From assembly GCA_005503085.1 (NCBI GenBank), contig SCOI01000002.1, positions 248,001 through 312,000 on the forward strand: a DNA stretch of 64,000 nucleotides. Direction: 5' to 3'. This DNA comes from Burkholderiales bacterium C2 (GTDB lineage Bacteria > Pseudomonadota > Gammaproteobacteria > Burkholderiales > Burkholderiaceae_C). The notes beneath the pieces were generated by a model that was not told where the DNA came from, made no database searches, and saw only the letters and a list, made by a program, of their open reading frames with translations. Made by a program: the position numbers and the translations under genes. Of the stretch, positions 13,251 to 58,321 are shown piece after piece (within the stretch, counting starts at the first letter, position 1; every line of letters starts with the position of its first letter).

Positions 13251-13328
13251 AAGCGCCTCGCAACTCGAAGTGACAAACCTCCCCTCGGCGCACGGCCTTG
13301 GGGCACTTCGAGAGCAATTTCCGGCCGC

Positions 13329-13347
13329 TGTGCACCAGGGATGCACA
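13329..13347. promoter_or_regulatory. Inverted repeat TGTGCA-N7-TGCACA (candidate operator)
   Basis: Perfect six-base arms separated by seven bases lie 79-97 bases upstream of the Rieske gene GTG and 121 bases before fumC. Symmetry and spacing fit a dimeric regulator. No regulator gene is adjacent to the Rieske cluster, so the factor is unknown. Confidence 0.4.
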
Positions 13348-13467
13348 GGCGGTGAACGCTTCTACTCTCTATGACAGGGATCAAGCAGCTTGCGTGCCAG
13401 CGGCGGCGGCCGGGCTCTGCGGCCGGGGGTGTAAGGTAGGCGCCTCTGAGCACAAAGGAGTCCAGCG

Positions 13468-44612: not shown

Positions 44613-46940
44613 GTGTCCGAGGTCATATTGAGCCGCAAAGCTTCCAGCTCGCTGTTTGTCGCCATTGCAACGGGCGCCAGCATCGGCCTGCTGCTGCCGG
44701 CGCTGATCATCGGCGGCATCCTGATCGGCCTGCGCGAACCGCAGCAGGCCGAGCAGATCCAGCAGCGCGAGTTGCAGGCCAAGCTCGATGTGCTGGCCTC
44801 CAGCCTGCCCGAGCTGCTGTGGAACCTGGATGCGGTGGCCGCCCGCGAAGTGGTGTCGGCCATCATGAAGTCGCCCGAGGTGGTGCGGGTGCGGGTCAGC
44901 GATGCCTCGCAGGGCGTGCCCTTCATCGAGATGCGCTTCCCGGAGCGCCAGAAGGGCCAGCTCTACCAGGGCGAGCGCGAGATCTATCGCGGCAGCGCCC
45001 GCATCGGCCATATCCAGATCGAGCTGGACGACCATCTGGCCAGCGCCGCGCTGGCGCGCCAGCGCTGGCTCTACGGCGCCACCGTCGGCGGCCAGCTGCT
45101 GATCTCGCTGGCCCTGATCCTGGCGCTCTTGAACTCCCGCGTGATGCGGCCGCTGCGCGAGCTCGGAGGCTTCGCCAATGATCTGGCGGCCGGGCGTTTC
45201 GCGGCCCGGCTCAAGCGCGAGCGCGATGACGAGATCGGCCGCCTGGGCGGTCATCTGGAACATATGCGCGACGCGCTGCAGCAGCAGTTCGAGTCGCAGC
45301 GCGACCTGATCAACCGGCTGCGCGGCATGGCCGAAACCGTGCCGGGCGTGGTCTACCAGCTGCGCCTGCGCGGCAACGGCGAGTTCGCGTTCGCCTATGT
45401 CAGCGAGGCGGTCAAGGACTACTTCCGCCTCAGCGCCAACGAACTGGCCGAGGACGCCAGCGCCTGGTTCGAGCAGCTCCATGCCGAAGACCGCAAGCCG
45501 GTGATGGACTCGCTGCTGGCCTCGGCCCGCCACCTGACGCCCTGGCAGCAGGAGTTCCGCACCCACCACCCCGACGGCAGCGAGCGCTGGCTCTACGGCA
45601 ATGCGATCGCGCAGCGCGAAGAAGGCCAGGACGGCTCCGGCGTGCTCTGGCACGGCTTTCTGACCGATATCTCGCGCCAGCGCCGCGATGCGCTGGAGCT
45701 GGAGCGCTACCGCCATCATCTGGAAGAGCTGGTGCAGGCGCGCACCGCCGAGCTGGCCGAGGCCACCCAGGCCGCCCAGGCGGCCAGCCTGGCCAAGAGC
45801 GCCTTCCTGGCCAATATGAGCCACGAGATCCGCACGCCGATGAATGCCATCATCGGCCTGACCTATCTGGTGCGGCGCGATGTCGTCGAGCCCGAGCAGC
45901 AGGAGCGGCTGCGCAAGGTGGCCGACGCCGCCGAGCATCTGCTCAGCGTCATCAACAATGTGCTGGACTTCTCCAAGATCGAGGCCGGCAAGCTGCAGCT
46001 GGACCGCGCCGAGTTCACGGTCGGCCAGGTGATGGACGGCATCTCCAGCATGCTGGCGCAGCGCGCGGCCGAGAAACGGTTGAAGGTCGAGCTCGAGCTC
46101 GACCCGGCGCTGGCGGCCCGCCCGCTGCTGGGCGATGCGCAGCGCATCGCCGAAGTGCTGCTGAACTTTGCCGGCAATGCGGTCAAGTTCACCGACCAGG
46201 GCTTTGTGCGCCTGAGTGCCAAGGTGGCCCAGGAGTCCGGCAACTCGGTGCAGCTGCGCTTCGAGGTGCGTGACAGCGGCATCGGCATCGCCGAGGACGT
46301 GCAGCAGCGCCTGTTCCAGGACTTCGAGCAGGCCGACAGCTCGACCACGCGCCGCTATGGCGGCACCGGCCTGGGCCTGGCGATCTGTCGGCGCCTGGCC
46401 CGGCTGATGCATGGCGAGGTCGGGGTCGAGAGCGCGCCGGGGGCCGGCAGCCTGTTCTGGTTCACCGTGCTGGTCGAGAAGTTCGAGGGCCGGGTCCGGC
46501 TGCCGCTGCCGCTGAGCCGCAACCAGGTGGCGCAGGAGCTGCAGAAGTCCTTTGCCGGCACCCGCGTGCTGCTGGCCGAGGACAACGCGGTCAATCAGGA
46601 GGTCGCGGTGGCCCTGCTGTCCAGCGCCGGTCTGCAGGTCGATGTGGCCGAGGACGGCCAGCAGGCGGTGGACATGGTGGAGCGGCAGGACTATGCGCTG
46701 GTGCTGATGGATGTGCAGATGCCCGTGATGGACGGGCTGGACGCGACCCGCACGATACGCCGCAGCGCCCGCGGCCGCGATCTGCCCATCCTGGCGATGA
46801 CGGCCAATGCCTTTGCCGAGGAGCGCCAGCGCTGCCTGGACGCCGGCATGAACGACCATGTGGCCAAGCCGGTGGTGGCCGAGCAGCTGTTCGCCACCTT
46901 GCGGCTGTGGCTCAGCAGGCAGGCCACGCCGACGAACTGA
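44613..46940 (+). CDS. Hybrid sensor histidine kinase/response regulator
   Basis: 775 residues. Membrane helix near 15-40, periplasmic region to about 150, helix 2 (about 155-175), HAMP (about 176-230), PAS (about 240-360), HisKA with the phospho-His in [16 protein letters not shown], HATPase_c ([23 protein letters not shown]), and a receiver domain with phospho-Asp in [14 protein letters not shown] and TANAFAEER. No HPt, so phosphate passes to an unlinked protein. GTG 44613 is listed; TTG 44628 with GAGG five bases upstream is a strong alternative start. Signal unknown. Confidence 0.9.
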
Positions 46941-46943
46941 GGG

Positions 46944-47918
46944 CTAGCGGCTCTGCTTGATCAGCCGGCCCGAATCCTTTTGCAGCGGGCGGGCATTCAT
47001 CGGGTAGAGCTTGGCAAAGATCTCGATCTGCTCGCCCGACAGCTGCACCGGCTGGCGCATCACCATCCACAGCACGCCCTCGCTGCAGGGCGGCGTCGTC
47101 AGCGAGCCCATATAGGTGTAGTAGGCGCGATCCTCGGGCAGCAGCTGCAGCAGGTCCAGCATGCCCGGCCCCGGCTGTGCCTCATGTTTTTCCAGCGGCA
47201 GATTGTTCCAGACGGTCTGCACCAGCGCCTGATGGATGGGGCCGCGCTCCAGCAGCACGGCCAGCACCGCGAGCCGGTCCTCGGCGTCCTTGTGCACCAG
47301 ATGGGCCACCATATCGAACTGGCGGCCATTGATGCGTTCCTCGCTGGGCCGGTGGAAATGGAACTGCTGCAGCTCGAAGCGCCGCCCCATCACCTGCAGG
47401 AAGTTGCCCGGCGCGATATTGACCTGCACCGTGTGGCCGGTGTCCAGCACCGCGAAGCCGCTGGGCTTGTAGTCGAACTGGATGGGTTCCAGATCGACGC
47501 GGATGCCGTCGCGGATGTCGATCGGGCTCTGGCGCGTGCCGATGGCGCAGAGGCGGTACTCGGGCTTGAGCCCGCCCCAATGCTCGGGCGCACCTTCGCC
47601 GCCATAGGCCCAGTGGATCTGCGCGGCCGGCTTGGCCGGCGCGGGCCTGCTGCCACGTTCGTCGACCCGGCTGCGTGCCTTGGGCGGGGCGATGGGCTCG
47701 GTCTTCGACGTCAGGCGTTCGGCCAGTCGCTGGCGCAGCACCTCGGCCGACTCGTCGCCGGCCGCCGGCTCGACCACGGCCGCCGCCACCGGCGGCTTCG
47801 GCGCTTTGCTGGTGCTCATGGCCGCCGGCCTGCCCTGGGCCACGGCGGCCGAGGCGACGAACAGCAGCATCAACAGACAGGCATGGCCGGGCGAAAGCGC
47901 CCGTATCGATGACAACAT
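46944..47918 (-). CDS. Exported alpha-class carbonic anhydrase
   Basis: 324 residues. Signal peptide (about 1-28, LLMLLFVASAAVAQG), a long charged, proline/alanine linker (to about 95), then the alpha-CA domain: HWAYGGEGAPEHWGGL, QSPIDIRDG, zinc histidines in QFHFHRPSEE and MVAHLVH, and GSLTTPPCSEGVLWMV. The linker is longer than in most bacterial alpha-CAs. Periplasmic CO2/bicarbonate interconversion, complementing the cytoplasmic beta-enzyme at 26551. Convergent with the histidine kinase, 3 bases apart. Confidence 0.93.
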   Translation of the reverse strand: MLSSIRALSPGHACLLMLLFVASAAVAQGRPAAMSTSKAPKPPVAAAVVEPAAGDESAEVLRQRLAERLTSKTEPIAPPKARSRVDERGSRPAPAKPAAQIHWAYGGEGAPEHWGGLKPEYRLCAIGTRQSPIDIRDGIRVDLEPIQFDYKPSGFAVLDTGHTVQVNIAPGNFLQVMGRRFELQQFHFHRPSEERINGRQFDMVAHLVHKDAEDRLAVLAVLLERGPIHQALVQTVWNNLPLEKHEAQPGPGMLDLLQLLPEDRAYYTYMGSLTTPPCSEGVLWMVMRQPVQLSGEQIEIFAKLYPMNARPLQKDSGRLIKQSR

Positions 47919-47992
47919 GATTTCTTCCGGCGCCGCCCATGCGGCCCCCTACCCCGTCATCATCGGCCGAGCGACGCGGCTCTTGAGCCGCG

Positions 47993-49198
47993 TCAGTACA
48001 TTTGCGGCTTGACCTTGATCCAGGCCACCAGGCCTATGCCCATCATGCACATCGAGGCCAGCGCCAGCGCCACGGTCGAGTGCATCACCAGCGGCACGAC
48101 GACACCGGCCACCAGGCCGTTGGCCGCGCTGCCGATGCAGGCCTGCAGCGAGGAAGCCATGCCGCGCCGGTCCGGCGCCTGGTCCAGCACCATCAGCGTC
48201 ACGACCGGCACCATCAGCGCCCAGCCGAAGGCAAAGACCGCGATCACCGGCAGAGCCCAGAAGGGGCTGGGCTTCAGCAGCAGGTTCAGCGTCACGTTCA
48301 GCACCGAAACCAGCAGCATGATGACGAAGCCATGGCGGATCTGGTGGCGCGGCTTGATCTTGCCGGCCAGCCGGCCGCTCATCCAGGCCCCGCCCATGAT
48401 GCCGCCGATCGAGAAGCAGAAGAACCAGAAGAACTGGGTCGGCGCCAGATGCAGATGTTCGCCGAGAAAGACCGGGGCCGCCAGCACATAGAGAAACATG
48501 CCGTTGAACGGAATGCCGCTGGCCAGGGCCAGGAGCAGAAAGCGCCGGTTGGTGCACATCTGCCGGTAGCCGCGCATCAGCGAGCCGACATGGAAAGGCT
48601 GCTTCTGGTCCTGATGCAGGGTCTCGGGCAGCAGCCGCCAGTTCGCCACCACCAGGGCCGCGCCGATCAGCACCAGGAACCAGAAGATCGAGTGCCAGTC
48701 GGCGTGGACAAACAGGAAGCCGCCCACCATCGGCGCGATCGCCGGCGCGATGCCGAAGAAGATCGTCACCTGGGACATCACCCGCTGCGCCTCTGAGGGC
48801 GGGAACATATCGCGGATGATGGCCCGCGAGACCACCACGCCGGCACCGGCGGACATGCCCTGCACGGTGCGCCAGAACACCAGCTGGCCTATCGTGCCGG
48901 CCAGCGCACAGCCCAGCGAGGCCAGGGTGAACACCACCATGCCCCACAGCACCACCGGGCGGCGGCCGAAGCTGTCGGACAGCGCGCCATGGAACAGATT
49001 CATCACCGCAAAGCCCAGCAGATAGCTGGACAGGGTCTGCTGCATCTCGACCGGCGTCGCATTCAGCGCCTGCGCGATGCCGGAGAAGGCCGGCAGATAG
49101 GTGTCGATCGAGAACGGCCCCACCATGCCCAGACAGGCCAGCAGGACGGCAAGAGCCCAGCGCGGTGCGCGCCAAAGGGTGCTGGCATCGGGATTCAT
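47993..49198 (-). CDS. Bcr/CflA-family drug-efflux MFS transporter
   Basis: 401 residues, twelve predicted membrane helices. LGMVGPFSIDTYLPAFSGIA is the Bcr/CflA start motif, HGALSDSFGRRPVVLWG the MFS motif A, and GISAGAGVVVSRAIIRDM-like segment (GMSAGAGVVVSRAIIRD) motif C region. Proton-driven export of chloramphenicol/bicyclomycin-type compounds is the family role; substrate not determined. No regulator adjacent. Confidence 0.92.
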   Translation of the reverse strand: MNPDASTLWRAPRWALAVLLACLGMVGPFSIDTYLPAFSGIAQALNATPVEMQQTLSSYLLGFAVMNLFHGALSDSFGRRPVVLWGMVVFTLASLGCALAGTIGQLVFWRTVQGMSAGAGVVVSRAIIRDMFPPSEAQRVMSQVTIFFGIAPAIAPMVGGFLFVHADWHSIFWFLVLIGAALVVANWRLLPETLHQDQKQPFHVGSLMRGYRQMCTNRRFLLLALASGIPFNGMFLYVLAAPVFLGEHLHLAPTQFFWFFCFSIGGIMGGAWMSGRLAGKIKPRHQIRHGFVIMLLVSVLNVTLNLLLKPSPFWALPVIAVFAFGWALMVPVVTLMVLDQAPDRRGMASSLQACIGSAANGLVAGVVVPLVMHSTVALALASMCMMGIGLVAWIKVKPQMY

Positions 49199-49309
49199 CG
49201 GGGTTTTGTGCGCTACACGCCCGCTCGGTCGGCAGGTCTGATGGGCAGTGCCGCAGTGTAGCGGCGCCCTCTAAACTCGGCACTCCTGTGGCTATGGCAT
49301 GACGGAACA

Positions 49310-50299
49310 ATGACGGAACCCTTGAACATCGGCATCATCGGCCTGGGCGTGATGGGCCAGCGCATGCTGGCCCGTCTGGCCACCCACCAGCGGCTGCGCG
49401 CCGCCTGGGTCTGGGATGCCAATCCGGCGGCCGTGGCCCAGACCCTGGCCGCCTACCCGCAGCTACAGGCTGCGGCCAGTGCGGAGCAGCTGATCGCCAC
49501 ACCCGGCCTGCACAGCCTCTATATCGCGACACCGCCCGCTGCGCACATGAGCCTGTCGCATCTGGCCTTCGATGCCGGCCTGGCGGTGTTCTGCGAGAAG
49601 CCGCTGACGGTGGACTTCCCCGCCGCACAGGAGGCCATCGCCCGCATCGCCCGCGAGAAGCAGCGCGCTGCGGTGAATTTCTCGCTGGCTTCGGCGCCGG
49701 GCCTGGGCGCGCTGCAACTGGCCTTCGGCGCGGCCTCCAGGCTGCCGCTGGGCCCGCTGAGCTCGGTCGAACTCGAGGTGGCCTTCGCCGCCTGGCCGCG
49801 TCCCTGGCAGGCCGGTGCCGGCGCCTGGCTGGCCGAGCGCGAGGAAGGCGGCTTCACCCGCGAGGTGCTGTCGCACTTCGTCTTCGTGCTGCAGCGCGTG
49901 CTGGGCCATGCCGAGGTGCTGGACAGCCACGTCGATTACCCCGCCGACGGCCGCAGCGCCGAGACCGCCTTGAACGCCCGGCTCGAAGCGGCCGGCGTGC
50001 CCATCCGCATCGCCGCCCGGGTGGCCAGCGACGTGCCGGTGCCCGATCACAACCGCATGCTGTGGCGCGCCAGCGAGGGCGAGATCGAGCTGCGCGAGTG
50101 GTTCGGCGTGACCCAGCAGCGCCGCAGCGAGGGCTGGCAGCCGCTGGGTTCGTCCGACGCGCTGCGAGCCAGCAGCCAGGCCGACCAGCTGGACCAATGG
50201 GTGGCGCTGATCGAGGGCCGCTCGCACAGCCTGCCCGGCTATGCCGAGGCGCTGGCCGTGCAGCAGACCATCGAGGCGCTGCTGACCAGCAAGACCTGA
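49310..50299 (+). CDS. Gfo/Idh/MocA-family oxidoreductase
   Basis: 329 residues. N-terminal Rossmann NAD(P) site GIIGLGVMGQRMLARLA, the conserved CEKPLTVDF (catalytic Lys), and a C-terminal alpha/beta domain. Typical of sugar/inositol dehydrogenases; substrate unknown. Last typical GC-rich gene before the AT-richer pair. Confidence 0.88.
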   Translation: MTEPLNIGIIGLGVMGQRMLARLATHQRLRAAWVWDANPAAVAQTLAAYPQLQAAASAEQLIATPGLHSLYIATPPAAHMSLSHLAFDAGLAVFCEKPLTVDFPAAQEAIARIAREKQRAAVNFSLASAPGLGALQLAFGAASRLPLGPLSSVELEVAFAAWPRPWQAGAGAWLAEREEGGFTREVLSHFVFVLQRVLGHAEVLDSHVDYPADGRSAETALNARLEAAGVPIRIAARVASDVPVPDHNRMLWRASEGEIELREWFGVTQQRRSEGWQPLGSSDALRASSQADQLDQWVALIEGRSHSLPGYAEALAVQQTIEALLTSKT

Positions 50300-50485
50300 C
50301 TGGCCCCTTCAATTGACGTTCTCGGCCGCGATCTGCGGCCTACGTTCCTGCGTCGCGAAGTGCCCGATGTACTAGGACACTGGCAGCAGCGGAAATTATT
50401 CACCGAAACTCTGAGCCGACGCGTCACCGCTCCCCGCATTCGGCCTACATTGGCCATGCCCGCGACGAACACAGGATGACAAGAC

Positions 50486-51550
50486 ATGAGCAAGGTCATG
50501 GCCGCGCCGCCGCTGACGGCAGGGTGGCTGGAAAATCGAACCTTTGACCTGGGCTTGGTCGTCGGTATCACCCTGGTCGCCGCTTTGGTCGCTATTTGTG
50601 CGGGGCTGGACCCTGCGTACCTTCAGATGCTGGTCATGGCCGATCTGTGGCTGCTTGGTTATCACCATGTGATTGCAACCTTTACCAAGCTGGCCGGCAC
50701 AGCCAGTGATCGGCGTCACAACTTCGCGTTGATCTGGTTGTTGTTTCCCGGCGTGTTAATCGCCACTGCTTTGCTCGGCAAGCTCCATGGCGTGATCGCC
50801 ATCGTGACGCTCTATTTTTTCTGGCAATGGTTTCATTATGTTCGTCAAAGCTGGGGTATTGCGCAGCGCTACCGCCATCGCGCCGGAACCATGCCCTGGG
50901 ACAATCAACGTGTAGCAGAAATCACGCTATGGTCGGTACCTATCTGGGGAATCCTGCACCGCTGCCACCAAAACTCAGACACTTTTCTATGGATGCCTGT
51001 TTGGATGCCAGCAGTGTCTCTTTGGGTCGTCCAACTAGCTGGCCTCGCTAGTGCAACCCTTGTGTGCCACTGGATACTCACTCGACTGCGGGCTTGGCGG
51101 CGCGGCGAACTGCCAGTCGGTCACACACTGTATATGGCGTCACACTTCATCGTATTTGCTTGCGCCTATATTTTGATCGACGATATCACCCTTGGCTGGC
51201 TGATGGTCAACGTTTGGCACAACGCCCAATACTTGACCTTTGTATGGATGCATAACCGTCAGCGTTTCAGTGCTGGAGTGACGCCAGACGGTCCGATCAT
51301 CTCCTGGCTGTCGCAACCAGGTCTGACTCGCGCCAGCATCTATTTCGGCTTGTGCTTGCTGATCACGACCGCCGTTTACACCGCTATCATCGATGGGTCG
51401 GCGCTGATTGAAAATGAACTCAAGCTCTTAGGCACCGATGCAGGCACACAGGCAATTGCATTGGTGATCTTATTCTCGATGACCATCAACTTCCATCACT
51501 ACATCGTGGACAGTATTATTTGGAAGCGTAAGAACGCGGCCAAGAGCTGA
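50486..51550 (+). CDS. Polytopic membrane protein with conserved histidine motifs, unknown function
   Basis: 354 residues, about eight or nine membrane helices. Histidines recur at helix ends: LLGYHHVIATFTKL, FFWQWFHYVRQSWG, ASHFIVFACAYILI, NVWHNAQYLTFVW and TINFHHYIVDSIIW. Such spacing resembles membrane di-iron or metal-binding enzymes (desaturase/hydroxylase type), but no known family matched in memory. The last codon overlaps the acyltransferase start (TGATG), so they are coupled. The DNA is clearly less GC-rich than the flanking genes. Function not assigned. Confidence 0.72.
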   Translation: MSKVMAAPPLTAGWLENRTFDLGLVVGITLVAALVAICAGLDPAYLQMLVMADLWLLGYHHVIATFTKLAGTASDRRHNFALIWLLFPGVLIATALLGKLHGVIAIVTLYFFWQWFHYVRQSWGIAQRYRHRAGTMPWDNQRVAEITLWSVPIWGILHRCHQNSDTFLWMPVWMPAVSLWVVQLAGLASATLVCHWILTRLRAWRRGELPVGHTLYMASHFIVFACAYILIDDITLGWLMVNVWHNAQYLTFVWMHNRQRFSAGVTPDGPIISWLSQPGLTRASIYFGLCLLITTAVYTAIIDGSALIENELKLLGTDAGTQAIALVILFSMTINFHHYIVDSIIWKRKNAAKS

Positions 51551-52620
51551 TGCGGCAGATACCTGCACTGGATGGACTCCGTGGGCTTGCCATCACGCTG
51601 GTTGTATTGCGCCACGCGGCCTACCTCGGAGAACAGGTTGGCGACCTCCCTACTGCTGCAGCCGTATTCATGCTCAATGGTTGGATCGGAGTCGATCTGT
51701 TTTTTATTCTCTCTGGATTCCTGATTGCTCGGCCATTTTTTTCCAACCAAGTTTTCTCATGGCGTACATATCTGACACGCCGCTCACTGCGCATCCTGCC
51801 AGTTTATATATTTTCTCTAGCACTTGCTTTTTTTATTCCATTCTATGATGTCAGCAACACAAACATGGGGTGGCGGATTTTCTATCATTTGCTGTTCCTA
51901 CAGGACTATTTACCATCAGACATAGTGATTGCATTTTGGTCACTAGGTGTGGAAGAAAAATTCTATCTTCTCGCACCGATTGTCTTGCCTTTTGCAATCA
52001 AATACCGCCGCATTGAAACCCAAGTACTGATACTGATCGCCATATTAATTCTCGGGCCGGTCGCACGTTTTTTGACGGTACTTGTCAGCGATCCAGCAAG
52101 CAGCTATCCGGAGTTCTTCAAGCTCTACCGAAGTCCATTTCACGCTTGTCTGGATGGTCTGTTCTTCGGCGTACTGCTGGCACGGCTCGAAGCGCTGCGT
52201 GTCGATTGGCTAACCCCTGATCGCGCACGTATCTGGTTTTGGATTGGCGCCCTGACCCTGCTCGCACTCATGCTCTCCCATGAGCTTCTGGATCATCTCG
52301 GCATGATTGCGGCGGTACTGCGACCCGTCGGCATCGGGTTGGTGATGGCCTTGCTCGTCGGTGCAGCCATCTTCAACGGCGCGCCTCGCGTTCTCGGGTC
52401 AGCAGTACCGCGCTGGCTGGGGCGCATTTCCTACAGCCTGTACCTGATCCACATTCCACTGATTGGACTGTCGATCGAACTGACCAGACCTCTAGGCGGG
52501 AAGTTCTTCGTCTTCCTGCCTATCTACGTGGCAATTTCGCTGGCCATGGCGCAGCTGATGCATATGCTGATTGAGCGCCCGTTTCTCGACCTCAAAAAAC
52601 GACTGGCCCCATCGTCATAG
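51550..52620 (+). CDS. OafA/YrhL-type membrane acyltransferase (acyltransferase 3)
   Basis: 356 residues, about ten membrane helices. Starts with the family motif PALDGLRGLAITLVVLRHAA (catalytic His with the preceding Arg), followed by GVDLFFILSGFLI and LGVEEKFYLL; SYSLYLIHIPLIGLS near the end. Transfers acyl groups to lipids, lipopolysaccharide, exopolysaccharide or antibiotics. Low GC like its partner, suggesting joint acquisition. It may modify the product of, or be cosubstrate for, the upstream protein (inference). Confidence 0.9.
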   Translation: MRQIPALDGLRGLAITLVVLRHAAYLGEQVGDLPTAAAVFMLNGWIGVDLFFILSGFLIARPFFSNQVFSWRTYLTRRSLRILPVYIFSLALAFFIPFYDVSNTNMGWRIFYHLLFLQDYLPSDIVIAFWSLGVEEKFYLLAPIVLPFAIKYRRIETQVLILIAILILGPVARFLTVLVSDPASSYPEFFKLYRSPFHACLDGLFFGVLLARLEALRVDWLTPDRARIWFWIGALTLLALMLSHELLDHLGMIAAVLRPVGIGLVMALLVGAAIFNGAPRVLGSAVPRWLGRISYSLYLIHIPLIGLSIELTRPLGGKFFVFLPIYVAISLAMAQLMHMLIERPFLDLKKRLAPSS

Positions 52621-52665
52621 CGCTGCCACTGCTGCAAGGATTCAACTTGCCTGCAGCCAAGCAAA

Positions 52666-53044
52666 AGAGTGAAGCAAGCCGATAGGCCGGATTCTGTGCA
52701 AGACCTGACCCTTGCGGGCTTTGGTCCTGTGACCGCCATTCCTCTGGGCCGGGCATCACTGCCCGGCTCGGTGCCACCTACCCGCCAGCTCAGCGAGCCG
52801 CCTCGATACTGGCCTACTTGGTGTTGCTGCGCGTAGAGATTGCCCGTTTCACCCGATCCCATGGGCTGCGCTCATGGTCCCGCAGGGCTTAGCACCCCGC
52901 ACGTTTGATCGACTCGTCTCTGTTGCTCTGATCCTCGGCTCACGCCGGACAGCCGTTAGCTGCTACGCCGCTCTATGCAGTCCGGACCTTCCTCCAGCCC
53001 CAGGTTTCCCTGATCGGGCCAGCGGCGGTCTGGCTTGCTTCACG
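52666..53044 (-). ncRNA. rnpB: RNase P RNA, class A
   Basis: Catalytic RNA that matures tRNA 5' ends. Read on the minus strand it opens with GAAGCAAGCCAGACCGCCGC, has the invariant GAGGAAGGTCCGGAC, CAGAGCAACAGAGA-like and GGGTGAAACGGGC blocks, AGAGGAATGGCGGTCACAG, and closes with CAGAATCCGGCCTATCGGCT and GCTTC. The first and last about ten bases pair (P1 stem GAAGCAAGCC/GGCTTGCTTC). End positions are good to a few bases. It separates the acquired pair from the EamA transporter. Confidence 0.95.
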
Positions 53045-53049
53045 ACCGC

Positions 53050-53055
53050 ATTATC
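53050..53055 (-). promoter_or_regulatory. -10 box of rnpB
   Basis: GATAAT on the minus strand, about seven bases before the 5' end of the RNA. No clear -35 box was found at the usual spacing. Confidence 0.5.
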
Positions 53056-53057
53056 GT

Positions 53058-53948
53058 TCATCGCTTCAGGCTCGCGATCGCGCCCGCCATCATCGCGACG
53101 CCCAGCAGCTGCAACGGGCTCAAGGCGCGTCCGTAGACGGCGCAGTCGACCAGCACCGCCGCCGCCGGATAGACGAACTGCAGCAGCGCGATGCGGCCGG
53201 CCGGCAGCCGGTTGATGCCGGCATAGAGCAGCACATAGGCCAGGCCGGTGTGTATCAGGCCCAGACCGGCCAGCCAGCCCCAGGCCGCACCCCAGGCCGG
53301 CCAGCCCTGCGTCAGCGGCCAGGCCAGCAGCACCACGCTGCCGACCGCGCACTGCCACCAGGCCAGCGCGAAAGAACTGACCCCGCGCACCGATTTCGCG
53401 ATCAGGGTCACGGCGGCATAGCTGAACGAGCCGCCGAAGCACATCAGCAGGCCCCAGCCATAGGCGGAGTCAATCTCCCGCCATTGGTCCAGCAGGCCGG
53501 TGGCCAGCGCCAGCCCCAGCAGCGCGATGAGCGCGGCCGCGCCCTGGCGGCGGCTGAAGGGCTCGCGCAGGAACAGCACGCCAAAGGCCATCACCAGCAG
53601 CGGCTGCACATGGAAGACCACGGTGGCCACCGCGATCGAGCTGCGCTCGATCGCCGCGAAGAACAGCCCCCAGTTGACCTGCATCAGCAGGCCGGCCGCG
53701 ACGGCGGCCAGCAGGCCGCGCCGCGCCAGCCGCAGCTCGCCCAGGCGAGCGCTGGCCAGACCCCAGACCAGCAGCGCCAGGACGCCGAAGGCACAGCGGA
53801 ACCAGACCGCCGTCAGCGGATCCTGGCCGGCCTCCTCCAGAAACACGCCCAGCGTGCCCAGCAGCAGGCCGCCGGCCAGCATCAGGGCCTGGCCCTGGCG
53901 TTCTTCGCTGGAGGCCGTCGGTGCGGGAGCGAATGTCGATGCAGGCAT
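53058..53948 (-). CDS. EamA/DMT-family transporter
   Basis: 296 residues with ten predicted membrane helices in two five-helix EamA repeats (ALMLAGGLLLGTLGVFLEEA first, GLLMCFGGSFSYAAVTLIAK second). Metabolite exporter of the RhaT/YdcZ-like superfamily; substrate unknown. Divergent from a LysR regulator with a small dyad in the gap. Its 3' end lies directly next to the rnpB promoter. Confidence 0.88.
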   Translation of the reverse strand: MPASTFAPAPTASSEERQGQALMLAGGLLLGTLGVFLEEAGQDPLTAVWFRCAFGVLALLVWGLASARLGELRLARRGLLAAVAAGLLMQVNWGLFFAAIERSSIAVATVVFHVQPLLVMAFGVLFLREPFSRRQGAAALIALLGLALATGLLDQWREIDSAYGWGLLMCFGGSFSYAAVTLIAKSVRGVSSFALAWWQCAVGSVVLLAWPLTQGWPAWGAAWGWLAGLGLIHTGLAYVLLYAGINRLPAGRIALLQFVYPAAAVLVDCAVYGRALSPLQLLGVAMMAGAIASLKR

Positions 53949-54005
53949 GCCGCGATGCTCGGCCAGCCGGGAAATCCTGTGAAGCGGATAGTTTTGCTGG
54001 CTACC

Positions 54006-54020
54006 ATTCGCTTATCGAAT
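54006..54020. promoter_or_regulatory. ATTCG-N5-CGAAT dyad between EamA and LysR genes
   Basis: Symmetric 15-base site in the 86-base divergent gap, containing a T-N11-A core as expected of LysR operators, 14 bases upstream of the LysR start. Confidence 0.45.
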
Positions 54021-54034
54021 AGCTGGAGCGAGCG

Positions 54035-54883
54035 ATGCGGGATCTGCAACTGGACTGGCTGCGCGCCTTCGTCGCGGTGGTCGATGCTGGCTCGCTATCG
54101 GCCGCCGCACCGCTGCTGCACCGCTCGCAATCGGCCGTCAGCATGCAGCTGCAGAAGCTGGAAGAGGCCGTCGGTCGGCCGGTGCTGCTGCGCGGCCCGC
54201 GCCATTTGGAACTGACTCCGAGCGGCCAGGAGCTGCTGGGTTTTGCGCGCCGCATGCTGGAGCTGCATAGCGAGGCACTGACCGCGCTGAACGGCCCGCA
54301 GCTGGGCGGACGGCTGCGCTTCGGCGTCCCCGACGACTATGCGGCTGGCTATCTGACGCCGCTGCTGCGCAGCTTCGCGAACCGCCATGCCGGGGTCGAG
54401 ATCGAGCTGGTCTGCGAGCAGTCGACCGCGCTGATCCCGCAAGTGCAGCGCGGCGAGCTCGATCTGGCCCTGGTCTCGCAGGACAAGCCCGGCCGCGGCA
54501 CCCATCTGTTCGACGAACCCCTGGTCTGGGTCGGGGCCGCGCAGCACGAGGCCTGGCGGCGCGAGCCGCTGCCGGTGGCCGTCTATGAAAGCGGCAGCAT
54601 GGCGCGCCGCGATGCGCTGGCGGCACTGAACGCGCAGCGGCGCGGCTACCGCATCGTCTATCACAGCGCCAGCCTGGCGGGCCAGCTGGCGGCGGTCGAG
54701 AGCGGGCTGGCGGTGGCCGTGCTGACGCGCTGCAGCGTGCCGCCGGGCCTGCAGATCCTCGGCGACAAACAGGGCCTGCCGCCGCTGCCCACGATGGCCG
54801 TGGCCCTGCTGCGCAGCCGGGCCTCGCGCGCATCGGCGGCGGCCGATGCGATGCAGGAGCTGGCGCTGCGCACGCTGGCCTGA
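54035..54883 (+). CDS. LysR-family transcriptional regulator
   Basis: 282 residues. HTH QLDWLRAFVAVVDAGSLSAA and RSQSAVSMQLQKLEEAVG, effector domain with FGVPDDYAAGYLTPLLRSFA. The last residues (MQELALRTLA) are typical of the DsdC/PerR-related group. Divergent from the EamA transporter, its probable target; convergent with the FHA gene. Confidence 0.88.
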   Translation: MRDLQLDWLRAFVAVVDAGSLSAAAPLLHRSQSAVSMQLQKLEEAVGRPVLLRGPRHLELTPSGQELLGFARRMLELHSEALTALNGPQLGGRLRFGVPDDYAAGYLTPLLRSFANRHAGVEIELVCEQSTALIPQVQRGELDLALVSQDKPGRGTHLFDEPLVWVGAAQHEAWRREPLPVAVYESGSMARRDALAALNAQRRGYRIVYHSASLAGQLAAVESGLAVAVLTRCSVPPGLQILGDKQGLPPLPTMAVALLRSRASRASAAADAMQELALRTLA

Positions 54884-54898
54884 AAGGCTGCGCGCGTT

Positions 54899-55882
54899 TC
54901 AGTCCTCGCCGTCTTCGGCCAGCTCCTCGTCGTCCTTCTTGGCCTGGCGGGCCAGCTCGGCCTCCAGCGGACGCAGCGAATCGATCAGCGCTTCGGGCGG
55001 CTTGGGCGCGACCAGGCGCAGCGCCGGCGGCGGCAGCGCGCTCAAGTACGGCGGGCCGAACCAGTGCTGCTGATCCAGCCGTCTGGCCACCAGCAGGGCC
55101 TGCGAGCAGACCAGAAAACCCATCACCCCCCAGGCCAGCGCACGCCGACCGCGCGGCCAGACTAGGCTGCCATGCCAGTACACAAGGCCTGCCAGCCCCA
55201 GCGGCAGGATCAGCCCTTCCAGCGGCAGCAGTTGGCGCAGCGAGAAGGCATAGGCCAGCAGCGGCAGCAGCGCGCCCACCAGGCTCATCAGCGCCACGCC
55301 GACCAGGGCCCGCCACAGATGGCTGGCGAAGGGGAAGCGGTGCTGGAACAGCTGGGTCACCAAGGCCCAGAGCGCGGCCCAGCTCAGCAGCAGACCCAGC
55401 GGCATCAGCACGGCGGCGGCATAGTCGATCCACGGCGAGCTCGGGTTCAGCGAGCTCCACTGGTCCAGCCACAACGCGCCCAGCCACAGCAGCATCAGCC
55501 CCGCCAGCCAGCGCAGCGGCGGCGCGCCGGCGGCCAGCAGCAGCGGCTGCTCAGGCGCCAGCGCGTCACTGCTGCGGCGCAGGCGCAGCTGGGTGGCGCC
55601 GAGCTGGAATACCGCGCCGGCCCCCAGGGCTACCGACTCGCCGGCCGCCAGCCGACTCCGGCCGAGCTGGCCGCCGTTGAGGCTGGGCAGCAGGGCCAGC
55701 TGCGGACCACCGGCCTCGTCCAGGCTCAGCCGGGCATGGGTGGCGGCCAGATGGCTGTCGTCCAGCACGATGTCGCAGTCCGGCGAGCGGCCGATCGAGA
55801 CCGGCCAGGCCTGCAGCTTGTGCGTGGCGCGTACCTGGCCATCGCGGCCCAGCACCTCGATCACTGCTGCGCGCGCGTCCAT
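54899..55882 (-). CDS. FHA-domain membrane protein
   Basis: 327 residues. N-terminal FHA domain (about 5-105) with the phosphothreonine-binding core SIGRSPDCDIVLDDSHLAATHARL-type residues (GRS...S..H), followed by five or six membrane helices and a charged C-terminus (LRPLEAELARQAKKDDEELA). Its first codons overlap the end of the S1C protease gene by 22 bases, so the two are translated together and probably act together at the inner membrane. Partner kinase not in the window. Confidence 0.82.
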   Translation of the reverse strand: MDARAAVIEVLGRDGQVRATHKLQAWPVSIGRSPDCDIVLDDSHLAATHARLSLDEAGGPQLALLPSLNGGQLGRSRLAAGESVALGAGAVFQLGATQLRLRRSSDALAPEQPLLLAAGAPPLRWLAGLMLLWLGALWLDQWSSLNPSSPWIDYAAAVLMPLGLLLSWAALWALVTQLFQHRFPFASHLWRALVGVALMSLVGALLPLLAYAFSLRQLLPLEGLILPLGLAGLVYWHGSLVWPRGRRALAWGVMGFLVCSQALLVARRLDQQHWFGPPYLSALPPPALRLVAPKPPEALIDSLRPLEAELARQAKKDDEELAEDGED

Positions 55883-57213
55883 CCGAAGCCTCCGAGGTAA
55901 TGGGCGCTCAGCTTGAGCGCGTTGTCAAAGCTGATGCCGCGGGCATCGAAACGGCCCAGCGCGCCCTCGGTGGCGCCATCCACCGTGGTCACCAGCACGC
56001 TCAAATCATGCAGGCCGGCCAGCTTGCGGTAGGCGCTCAGGCAGATCACCGCGCGCAGCGGCGGTCCCTCCTTGACGTCCTTCTGGATGAACTCCTCGCG
56101 GCAATGCGGCGCGGTGCGCTGCTTGTTGGAGCGGCCCAGGTTCTCGTTGCGAAAGCTGCCCGAGTACTGCTTGGCAAAACGCAGCGCACCGAGCTTGGCG
56201 CCGTCGTAGGCCTCGTGCGAGATGTCCAGGTAGCCGGTCTGCAGCGCGCCATTGATGAAGACCGCATGCTCCATCCGGCATTGCGAGCGCTGGAAGTCCA
56301 GGCCCTTGCTGTCGGCCGGCGTGCCCCGCCCCCAGCAGCGCATGAACTGCTCCTGAGGCACCGGCAGGCGGTAGCGTGCATGGTCGGCGCCGCGCCAGGG
56401 CTGGGCGATGAAGCGGGTCACCAGCTCGTCCTGATAGGCCATCAGCTGCTCGCGCAAGCGCGGCCAGGCCGGGCCGGCCAGCGGCTTGCTCGCACGGCTG
56501 CGCTCGAACAGGCGCAGCGCGAACTCGGCCGGCACCAGAAAGCTCATCTGCTGGGCGAAGAACATCGCCGAGACATTGATGCCGACGACCCGGCCCTCCT
56601 CGTCCAGCACCGGGCCGCCGCTCATGCCCGAGTTGATGCTGCCCGAGTAGTAAATCAGCGCATCGAAGCTGCGCTCGACCAGGCCGTTGTAGGTGCCCTC
56701 GACGACAGCGAAGGCCACGTCGTGCGGGTTGCCCATCGAGTAGATGCGGTCGCCCTTGGACAGCGGCTGGTCCAGCGGGCGAAAGCGCAGCGCGCCGGCA
56801 TTCTTCAGCCCGGCGCCGACCACGCGCAGCAGCGCCAGGTCGCGCCGCACATCGAAGTCCAGCAGCTCCAGCTCGCCCGCCTGGCCCTCCGTGCCGGCAT
56901 AGCGCAGGCGGTAGCGCTCGGGCTCCAGCGCGGCCTGGCTGATCACATGGTAGTTGGTGATCACATGGCCGTCCTCGCTGACCAGAAAGCCCGAGCCGAC
57001 CGAGGCCTGGCTGTCCTGATTCTTCAGCAGGGTGCGGATCTGCAGCAGCTGGCCACGGGCCCGCTCGTAGATGCGCCGGGCGGTGGCCGAGACCGCCGCG
57101 GCCGGCGCGCTGGCGGCCGCTGCCGGAGCTGCGGGCACCGGCTGCGGCTGGGCCAGCAGCGGCTGGGCCAGGGTCTGCAGCAGCAGTCCGGCCACGATCA
57201 AGAGTTTGCGCAA
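55861..57213 (-). CDS. Secreted S1C/trypsin-like serine protease
   Basis: 450 residues: signal peptide (about 1-21), alanine/proline-rich linker, protease domain (about 60-270) with His in HVITNYHVIS, Asp in FDVRRDLALLRV and Ser in NSGMSGGPVLDEEGRVVGIN, and a C-terminal region of about 180 residues with several cysteines (FMRCWGRGT, RSQCRMEH) that is not a PDZ domain. Unlike DegP/HtrA there is no PDZ, so it is a stand-alone periplasmic or membrane-associated protease. Overlaps the FHA gene downstream. Target unknown. Confidence 0.85.
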   Translation of the reverse strand: MRKLLIVAGLLLQTLAQPLLAQPQPVPAAPAAAASAPAAAVSATARRIYERARGQLLQIRTLLKNQDSQASVGSGFLVSEDGHVITNYHVISQAALEPERYRLRYAGTEGQAGELELLDFDVRRDLALLRVVGAGLKNAGALRFRPLDQPLSKGDRIYSMGNPHDVAFAVVEGTYNGLVERSFDALIYYSGSINSGMSGGPVLDEEGRVVGINVSAMFFAQQMSFLVPAEFALRLFERSRASKPLAGPAWPRLREQLMAYQDELVTRFIAQPWRGADHARYRLPVPQEQFMRCWGRGTPADSKGLDFQRSQCRMEHAVFINGALQTGYLDISHEAYDGAKLGALRFAKQYSGSFRNENLGRSNKQRTAPHCREEFIQKDVKEGPPLRAVICLSAYRKLAGLHDLSVLVTTVDGATEGALGRFDARGISFDNALKLSAHYLGGFGWTRAQQ

Positions 57214-57277
57214 GTCTGTTCCCTCCTCGTTGCGTCGCCGGCCATGCTAGCCGGTTTGCAGCCAGGAGGCCGCGCGG

Positions 57278-58321
57278 TCAGAGCAGTTTCCAGCCCAGCG
57301 CCTCGCCGCCGCGCAGCGGCTTGAGCCGCGCCTCGCCGAAGGGCACGCTGTCGGGCAGGGTCCAGTCCTGCTTGAGCAGCGTGACGCGCTCGGTATTGCG
57401 CGGCAGGCCGTAGAAGTCGGCGCCATTGAAGCTGGCGAAGGCCTCCAGCTTGTCGAGCGCGCCCATCGCCTCGAAGGCCTCGGCATAAAGCTCCAGCGCG
57501 CTCATCGCGGTGAAGCAGCCGGCGCCGCAGACCGAGTTCTCCTTCATCACCGAGGCGTGCGGCGCGCTGTCGGTGCCGAGGAAGAACTTCGTGCTGCCCG
57601 AGGTCGCGGCCCGTATCAGGGCCAGGCGGTGCTCCTCGCGCTTGAGCACCGGCAGGCAGTAGTAGTGCGGGCGCAGGCCGCCGGTGAAGATGGCATTGCG
57701 GTTGTAGAGCAGATGCTGGGGCGTCAGGGTCGCGGCCGTGTAGGCATCGGCGCTGTGCACGTACTGTGCGGCCTCCTTGGTCGTGATGTGCTCGAACACC
57801 ACCTTCAGCTCGGGCATGTCGGCCCGCAGCGGCGTCATCACGCGGTCGATGAAGACGGCCTCGCGGTCGAACACATCGATGTCCGGGTCGGTCACCTCGC
57901 CGTGCACCAGCAGCAGGAGGCCCTCGCGCTGCATCGCCTCCAGCGTCTTGTAGGTCTTCTTGATGTCGGTGACACCGGCATCGCTATTGGTCGTGGCGCC
58001 GGCCGGGTAGAGCTTGAGCGCGACCACGCCGGCGTCCTTGGCGCGCTTGATCTCGTCGACCGGGGTCAGGTCGGTCAGGTACAGCGTCATCAGCGGCTCG
58101 AACTTCAGGCCCTCGGGCACGGCCGCGAGGATGCGCTCTCGGTAGGCCTGGGCCTGGGCGGCCGTCGTGATCGGCGGGCGCAGATTGGGCATCACGATGG
58201 CACGGGCGAACTGGCGCGCGGTGTGCGGCACGACGCTCTGCATCGCGGCCTCATCGCGCAGGTGCACATGCCAGTCGTCGGGGCGAATCAGGCTCAGCTG
58301 GGTGGGGGTGGCGGTACTCAT
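57278..58321 (-). CDS. pyrC: Dihydroorotase (class II)
   Basis: Cyclises carbamoyl-aspartate to dihydroorotate in pyrimidine synthesis. 347 residues as in E. coli PyrC. Zinc ligands in DDWHVHLRD, carbamylated lysine in [30 protein letters not shown] and [10 protein letters not shown] 58321 fits the E. coli start; the longer frame upstream adds unconserved residues. Confidence 0.96.

Follow-up and report, generated by a model that had tools for sequence, protein, structure and literature searches.

The window analysed here, a stretch of 64,000 nucleotides from Burkholderiales bacterium C2 (contig SCOI01000002.1, positions 248,001 to 312,000 of the forward strand), contains a pair of overlapping open reading frames (ORFs), ORF1 and ORF2, which form an inserted islet at the 3′ end of the RNase P RNA gene rnpB. 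ORF1 is an undescribed membrane protein with strongly conserved histidines, and ORF2 is an AT3 (OafA-type) acyltransferase. The pair recurs in many distant bacteria, which points to a hitherto unrecognized form of decoration of membrane lipids or surface sugars. The partner modules that accompany ORF1 are near-exclusive of each other, and the insertion site is empty in a relative of the same genus. Our best explanation is tentative, and our confidence in it as a whole is somewhat less than even: a four-histidine metal oxygenase (ORF1) would prepare an acceptor, an exchangeable partner would decorate it, and the islet would have been transferred horizontally. ORF1 would herein be a polytopic membrane metalloenzyme. 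Its four universal histidines would sit at or near helices 2, 4, 8, and 10 and hold a metal, probably a single Fe, close to the membrane centre or in its inner half, arranged as in the Brp/Blh β-carotene dioxygenases. It would oxidize (hydroxylate or otherwise activate) a membrane lipid or a lipid-linked glycan, and ORF2, translated from the overlapping start codon, would carry an acyl group across the membrane onto the ORF1 product. The second step would be exchangeable, with glycosyltransferase/flippase-like or Dlt-like genes accompanying ORF1 elsewhere, and the pair would have come as a 2.4 kb cargo islet. The metal, the redox chemistry and use of oxygen, the substrate, and the order of the steps are what we infer here. 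The genes of the pair are the following.

50486..51550, plus strand: ORF1, a 354-residue membrane protein, proposed four-histidine metal enzyme (from the ORF, alignments, and a structure model)
51548..51552, plus strand: TGATG overlap of ORF1 and ORF2, in which the stop codon TGA (51548-51550) shares one base with the ATG at 51550
51550..52620, plus strand: ORF2, a 356-residue AT3 (OafA-type) O-acyltransferase by its match to PF01757 (E-value 8.6e-28, residues 5-336)

Both reading frames and their overlap had been proposed in an initial annotation of this DNA and are present as described there. The annotation recognized no family for the first protein, and searches with ORF1 as a single protein likewise gave nothing significant in Pfam, NCBIfam, PDB sequences, plasmids, or phages (tblastn for the last two); searches of viral contigs were of no help. 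When Pfam was run over 74 ORF1 members, nine families were listed, the commonest being CydS-like (6/74, best E-value 0.0066), and these CydS-like matches are taken for chance. Stepwise whole-genome searches and one scan of a species collection revealed a broad family, the scan giving 87 relatives. The best 80 by similarity to ORF1 were kept, so that the partner fractions given below lean toward near relatives. Most of these 80 loci are titled Alphaproteobacteria or families of that class; the others come from Gammaproteobacteria, Myxococcota, Planctomycetota, Acidobacteriota, Actinomycetota, Bacteroidota, Chloroflexota, and Omnitrophota. Many of the 80 loci come from metagenome-assembled genomes (MAGs), and some contigs may be misbinned. 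Within the class of Pelagibius (G708), which we take to be Alphaproteobacteria, 16 of 240 genomes have a match. The ORF1 family is widespread and has no name in the libraries searched. In the tree, the ORF1 of the window forms a long branch in a supported clade of seven, in which AT3 is adjacent in five and nearby in one. Three members are peculiar in themselves: a contig titled Bifidobacterium breve (L065, 71% guanine plus cytosine (GC)) has an ORF1 gene and is probably misbinned; one Rickettsiales MAG contains two diverged copies on a single contig (L054 and L092), one with a weaker AT3 directly upstream; and the homologue in L091 (9878-11188) is split into two open frames, with the downstream AT3 gene still open.

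The five histidine sites pointed out in the initial annotation are all present in the ORF1 of the window (H60/61, H117, H220, H245, and H337/338) and are conserved in homologues; the lack of conservation that the annotation had named as speaking against its proposal was not found. In an alignment of 80 close rows, made up of the window plus 79 loci (L091 was omitted for its split frame), H61, H117, H220, H245, D21, and D342 are kept in all, H338 in 79, H337 in 78, and H60 in 75. The patterns of the species-collection scan covered only the stretches around H60/H61 or H117, and the remaining conserved positions were therefore not selected by the scan. With deep branches included, 104 rows minus seven duplicates (99% identity) gave 97 distinct members, a set without the fragments L168 and L169. 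All 97 have H61, H117, Q121, G124, H245, Q248, Y249, and W346, and 96 have H338 (one gap), D342, and D21, followed by H337 (92/97), H220 (82/97), and H60 (76/97). The deep members were found with profiles containing these columns, which biases the set toward conserved histidines. From these alignments, the core of ORF1 can firmly be described as four histidines (H61, H117, H245, and H338) plus an acidic residue. The deep relatives L167, L170, L171, and L172 retain the four core histidines.

The initial annotation had compared ORF1 with membrane di-metal enzymes, and this comparison did not hold up as well. A di-iron hydroxylase or desaturase of the fatty acid desaturase/AlkB type would share with ORF1 the presence of several histidine motifs in a membrane enzyme and a lipid-like context, and six to seven histidines are indeed conserved in the close subfamily. 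However, only four are universal (at most seven are conserved in that subfamily), compared with the nine histidines of the AlkB di-iron site (PMC10110569), and no desaturase or hydroxylase Pfam match occurs in the 74 members, which makes this alternative distinctly improbable. The pattern is better matched by a Blh-like mononuclear site with four histidines.

A structure of ORF1 was predicted by AlphaFold2 from the 74 aligned members (mean pLDDT 93.4, pTM 0.90) and shows ten long helices, with H61 sitting just after helix 2. By the positive-inside rule both termini would be cytoplasmic, and D21, H61, H117, H220, H245, H338, and D342 would lie halfway through the membrane or in its inner half. 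A Foldseek search of the model against PDB and viral structures gave no match at E ≤ 0.001. The best rows of VIA-align were sensory rhodopsin II (Z 7.0, root-mean-square deviation 4.5-5.1, 165-173 aligned), a likeness that was treated as a common helical arrangement, as the program's own notes allow. Desaturases do not stand among the rows listed by either program, nor Blh among those of VIA-align, which does not exclude either fold. Membrane cytochromes b use intramembrane histidines on several helices. ORF1 could accordingly be imagined as a transmembrane haem protein whose b-type haems are held by pairs of histidines from different helices and serve electron transfer, the partners being incidental; the four universal histidines and the invariant Q121 would suit it. 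We consider this improbable because no membrane cytochrome b family is among the nine Pfam families listed, the CydS-like match is not significant, and 62 of the 81 loci have partners of the acyl, glycosyl, or aminoacyl transfer type, in a count that did not include respiratory genes.

The Brp/Blh dioxygenases are the known proteins that the proposed site would resemble most in layout. They were represented by 18 BCD (PF15461) proteins, taken from 18 of the 21 loci L135-L155; L147 (truncated), L150 and L153 (missed by the motif filter), and L156 (below the cut-off) were left out. BCD genes were found in one of 20 genomes and in 21 of 100 genomes (20 over the cut-off), and in none of 36 genomes of the class in a first search. 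Like ORF1, the BCD proteins are polytopic membrane proteins, and their four invariant histidines follow one another as in ORF1. The GxxH context is common to ORF1 and all BCD rows, and the H-aromatic-x-x-Q and WH[SN] contexts to ORF1 and most BCD rows. In Blh 66A03, replacement of His21, 78, 188, or 192 reduced activity to below 5% (PMC9227343). On our reading of the ORF1 model and of Blh hydropathy, both proteins would have the four histidines in or close to segments 2, 4, 8, and 10. On a forced full-length alignment path, the four invariant BCD histidines fall on H61, H117, H245, and H338, the first two pairing only in this way, and none of 60 templates in a reversed-rotation control reached the ORF1-Blh score. 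The motifs WHFGRQ and HGLQY of the deep relative L171 seem closer to Blh (YHFGEQ and HSLRH).

Several results weigh against this resemblance. The profile comparison (hhalign) of ORF1 with BCD gave E-values of 0.015-0.024 and a probability of 2-3%, and the default alignment spans only 89 columns at the C-terminal end, in which H245 and H338 are paired with BCD histidines three and four. Three of 100 locally shuffled templates score as high, and the unrelated AT3 profile reaches 20.7 against Blh, compared with 25.4 for ORF1. A 15-row ORF1 profile gave an E-value of 0.067, the distant ORF1 rows alone gave 0.21 in another register, and adding the deep members left it at 0.017; the deep member L172 aligns best with BCD in another register. 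Taken alone, hydropathy yields 9 or 10 maxima for ORF1 and 11 or 9 for Blh, according to the averaging window chosen, which is no clean count of ten segments. Alignment in global mode was also tried and gave nothing useful. PF15461 matches neither ORF1 nor any of the 74 members at an E-value of 0.1, nor anything in the window's own genome, and no PDB structure of Blh was found by sequence search. ORF1 further differs from Brp/Blh by the extra H220 and H337, by the invariant Y249, by a length about 60 residues greater than that of L138, and by its neighbours, which are acyltransferase or glycan-type genes. The profile similarity (E-value about 0.015) hence gives no proof of kinship between ORF1 and Blh, and membership is not established on the sequences compared. 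That ORF1 works like Blh at the four-histidine site may be taken as a reasonable hypothesis by analogy.

It is highly improbable that ORF1 is an outlying true Brp/Blh member that cleaves a carotenoid and that ORF2 acylates the apocarotenoid or a carotenoid glycoside. The four histidines match in order, and squalene/phytoene synthase genes occur in the genome of the window as well as in 15 of the 20 other ORF1 genomes (17 of 22 genomes tested when G001, which has no ORF1, is included). Against it, no profile score is significant, five of the 20 genomes have no squalene/phytoene synthase match (incomplete MAGs among them), and no BCD-like ORF occurs in any of 81 ORF1 loci. A carotenoid was rejected as a required substrate of ORF1 on the count of these five genomes; a carotenoid or a hopanoid would be a possible one. 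Yoonia vestfoldensis (G711), the single BCD-positive genome among the 20, has both kinds of gene: a bona fide BCD gene (L135) beside a putative lycopene cyclase gene, as read from its sequence, and an ORF1-AT3 pair (L089). The 21 kb around this pair contain no BCD-like ORF, and the BCD gene lies outside them.

The second gene of the pair is more readily placed. ORF2 matches PF01757 with 97.8 bits (gathering score 31) and is an AT3 (OafA-type) acyltransferase by this match; no SGNH domain was found in it by Pfam. R11, H22, H301, and most of GVDxFFxLSG are kept in at least 29 of 30 ORF1-ORF2 pairs. R11 and H22 have the spacing of R14 and H25 of OafB (Arg and His 11 apart), a match by spacing only; the latter two residues are called essential in PMC9833829. 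ORF2 differs from known AT3/OafA-type proteins in that no SGNH domain was found and that its subfamily often travels with ORF1. AT3 proteins, as described in PMC12423673, give acyl-CoA entry to the membrane, from where transfer to an outer acceptor takes place.

The coupling to an OafA-type acyltransferase, which the initial annotation had proposed, recurs well beyond the window. In 33 of 80 loci, an AT3 gene directly follows ORF1 on the same strand (AT3-only profile; gaps up to 265 bp; L085 and L091 are counted, their frames being odd), and in three it lies directly upstream (L054, L058, and L086, the last a fragment at a contig edge). It is divergent and adjacent in L098 and lies within 1.4 kb in L023 and L039. 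In total, AT3 is next door in 36 loci and within 5 kb in 38 of the 80; the check for co-occurrence that the annotation had suggested hence came out in its favour. Two of the 80 loci end within 150 bp downstream of ORF1. The AT3-only profile was used for a recount because single linkage had mixed AT3 with flippase-like LPG_synthase_TM proteins, and the resulting acyltransferase cluster was rejected as one family; 36 chosen downstream proteins comprise 21 matches to PF01757 and six to LPG_synthase_TM. The pair is more than a chance neighbourhood. It is absent from G001 and recurs in adjacent form elsewhere. A literature search found no such gene pair named in titles or abstract openings, from which absence from the literature is not claimed.

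Over all 81 loci, the window included, the modules within 5 kb are AT3 in 39 (counted at E ≤ 1e-10), glycosyltransferase-type genes in 17, flippase-like genes in eight, and Dlt-like genes in five. The glycosyltransferase label is based on a GT2 match and on PMT_2 in one of seven scanned members of a larger protein, and the flippase-like label is exemplified by the TIGR00374 match in L055. For the Dlt-like label, L047 has DltA-/DltB-type NCBIfam matches below the cut-offs, and a weak AlgX match was seen in one of four scanned. These modules are near-exclusive of each other: AT3 and glycosyltransferase meet in one locus (L066), with about eight expected from the frequencies when kinship is disregarded, AT3 and Dlt-like in none, and AT3 and flippase-like in one (L023). 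Flippase-like genes and glycosyltransferases occur together in five loci. On the tree, the AT3 label needs seven changes compared with 10.8 for shuffles (4/500 as low), grouped rows only, counted over 33 AT3 rows as L091 is not in the tree; AT3 versus all others needs 20 changes with L034 and L095 set aside. The distances of ORF1 and ORF2 correlate in a mirror-tree comparison (r 0.66 over 30 of 34 AT3 pairs, compared with 0.32 for the best of 2000 permutations), with L042, L080, L085, and L091 left out as truncated or odd in frame. On the other side of the balance, such a correlation is also expected from shared descent and is not separable from co-function, and 19 of the 81 loci have no counted partner module within 5 kb.

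Five ORF1 loci recall the DltABD/MBOAT-SGNH systems by DltA-like, AlgX-like, and DltB-like matches, all below the cut-offs; the window's ORF1, in contrast, has an AT3 partner. ORF1 is not known to be a component of Dlt systems. Another kind of partner is seen in L177 (6972-8117) and L178 (6761-8161), where an upstream gene overlaps a divergent ORF1 by ATGA; its product has paired Cys motifs, an apparent signal peptide, and no Pfam match.

As a rule, the partner enzymes would attach groups outside the cytoplasm. The four-histidine protein is common to all loci, and the commonest variable elements beside it are enzymes for the transfer of acyl, sugar, or aminoacyl groups. On the simplest account, ORF1 would make or activate the acceptor. 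An oxygenase adding a hydroxyl to the acceptor would fit this role, and the second step looks exchangeable because the partner is swapped between loci. The lipid or glycolipid modification unit suggested in the initial annotation is, from the gene context, plausible. Partners that alternate between AT3, Dlt-like, and glycosyltransferase-type modules would fit a general carrier or flippase as well, and flippase-like proteins lie within 5 kb in eight of the 81 loci; ORF1 could then be a non-redox partner of AT3 that binds the acceptor lipid, flips it, or relays the acyl group, with the histidines as acid-base residues. We judge this to be fairly unlikely, as L046, L048, and L055 already have a separate flippase-like gene, and so many invariant histidines are unusual in a membrane flippase.

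The base composition and the surroundings of the pair bear on its history in this lineage. As the initial annotation had stated, the GC content of the pair lies below that of both sides, with 0.543 for ORF1 and 0.522 for ORF2 compared with 0.678 for the whole window. At third positions the values are 0.65 and 0.57, compared with 0.91 for the gene upstream, and a local minimum of 0.47 is reached around 51500-52250. The features of the insertion are the following.

49310..50299, plus strand: Gfo/Idh/MocA oxidoreductase, the left flank, in whose final codons the homology with G001 stops (family search and blastn)
50289..50300, plus strand: 12-nucleotide direct repeat GCAAGACCTGAC, left copy at the insertion edge (exact repeat)
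50293..52662, no strand: islet, an insertion of about 2.37 kb that G001 lacks (blastn of window 46501-57500 against G001, L129)
52667..53041, minus strand: rnpB (RNase P RNA, class A), whose 3′ end borders the islet (RF00010, 200 bits)
52698..52709, plus strand: 12-nucleotide direct repeat GCAAGACCTGAC, right copy inside rnpB near its 3′ end (exact repeat)

G001, which belongs to the same genus, aligns by blastn at 93.2% over window positions 46501-50292 and at 92.6% over 52663-56706, and the two aligned blocks stand 2 bp apart in it, leaving a clean empty site. The blocks break at 50292 and 52663, and the islet is therefore placed at 50293-52662. It is bordered by the last codons of the Gfo/Idh gene on the left and by a short T-run after rnpB on the right, is almost filled by ORF1 and ORF2, and has no recombinase gene that could be seen. 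Since rnpB lies on the minus strand, its 3′ end faces the pair. The insertion beside rnpB that had been suspected is thus borne out, and the alternative named with it, a syntenic pair of normal GC in the sister species, was not found, G001 having no pair. The repeat GCAAGACCTGAC may be an att-like or microhomology trace of the insertion, which is only a hint because an equally good shared 12-mer arises in 301 of 20000 random placements.

Three more relatives with an alignable left flank (G014, G012, and G008) also have no pair; in G011 and G004, rnpB alone could be aligned. Just before rnpB, G014 and G012 have a major facilitator superfamily (MFS) gene instead of the pair. In G008, the site at the rnpB 3′ end is taken by a gene on the other strand that reads as methyl-accepting chemotaxis-type (L131 4300-6060), and the occupants of this site vary between genera. 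A protein search found ORF1 in none of 59 other relatives, and a profile search found it in three of 299 family members, including the window's genome; the other two, G1219 and G1307, have divergent copies with no AT3 gene within the 18 kb read. The simplest reading of this distribution is that the pair was gained in the window's lineage. The divergent ORF1 of G1307 (same family; L178 8158-9210) likewise has a stable RNA gene next to it: it terminates alongside the 3′ end of a minus-strand tRNA gene (L178 9271-9357), which adjoins a seryl-tRNA synthetase gene. Elsewhere in the window, a xanthine (NMT1) riboswitch aptamer was found at 13307-13372 on the minus strand (46.9 bits).

A wider reading, possible but doubtful, is that ORF1 belongs to an undescribed superfamily of four-histidine metal oxygenases integral to the membrane, with members in Pseudomonadota, Planctomycetota, Acidobacteriota, Actinomycetota, Myxococcota, and others, which would write an oxidized handle on a membrane lipid or lipid-linked sugar for decoration by interchangeable acyl, glycosyl, or aminoacyl transferases. 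Together they would make up a modular system that modifies the envelope in two steps and that could pass between genomes in minimal cargo islets next to RNA-gene 3′ ends. A widespread family of membrane proteins with an invariant histidine set and no Pfam or NCBIfam match is in any case tied to envelope-decorating enzymes, and its chemistry is testable by deletion and lipid profiling. The near-exclusive partner modules herein provide a genetic handle on the product of ORF1. If the resemblance to Blh is real, the retinal-forming dioxygenases would extend into a much larger group of lipid oxygenases.

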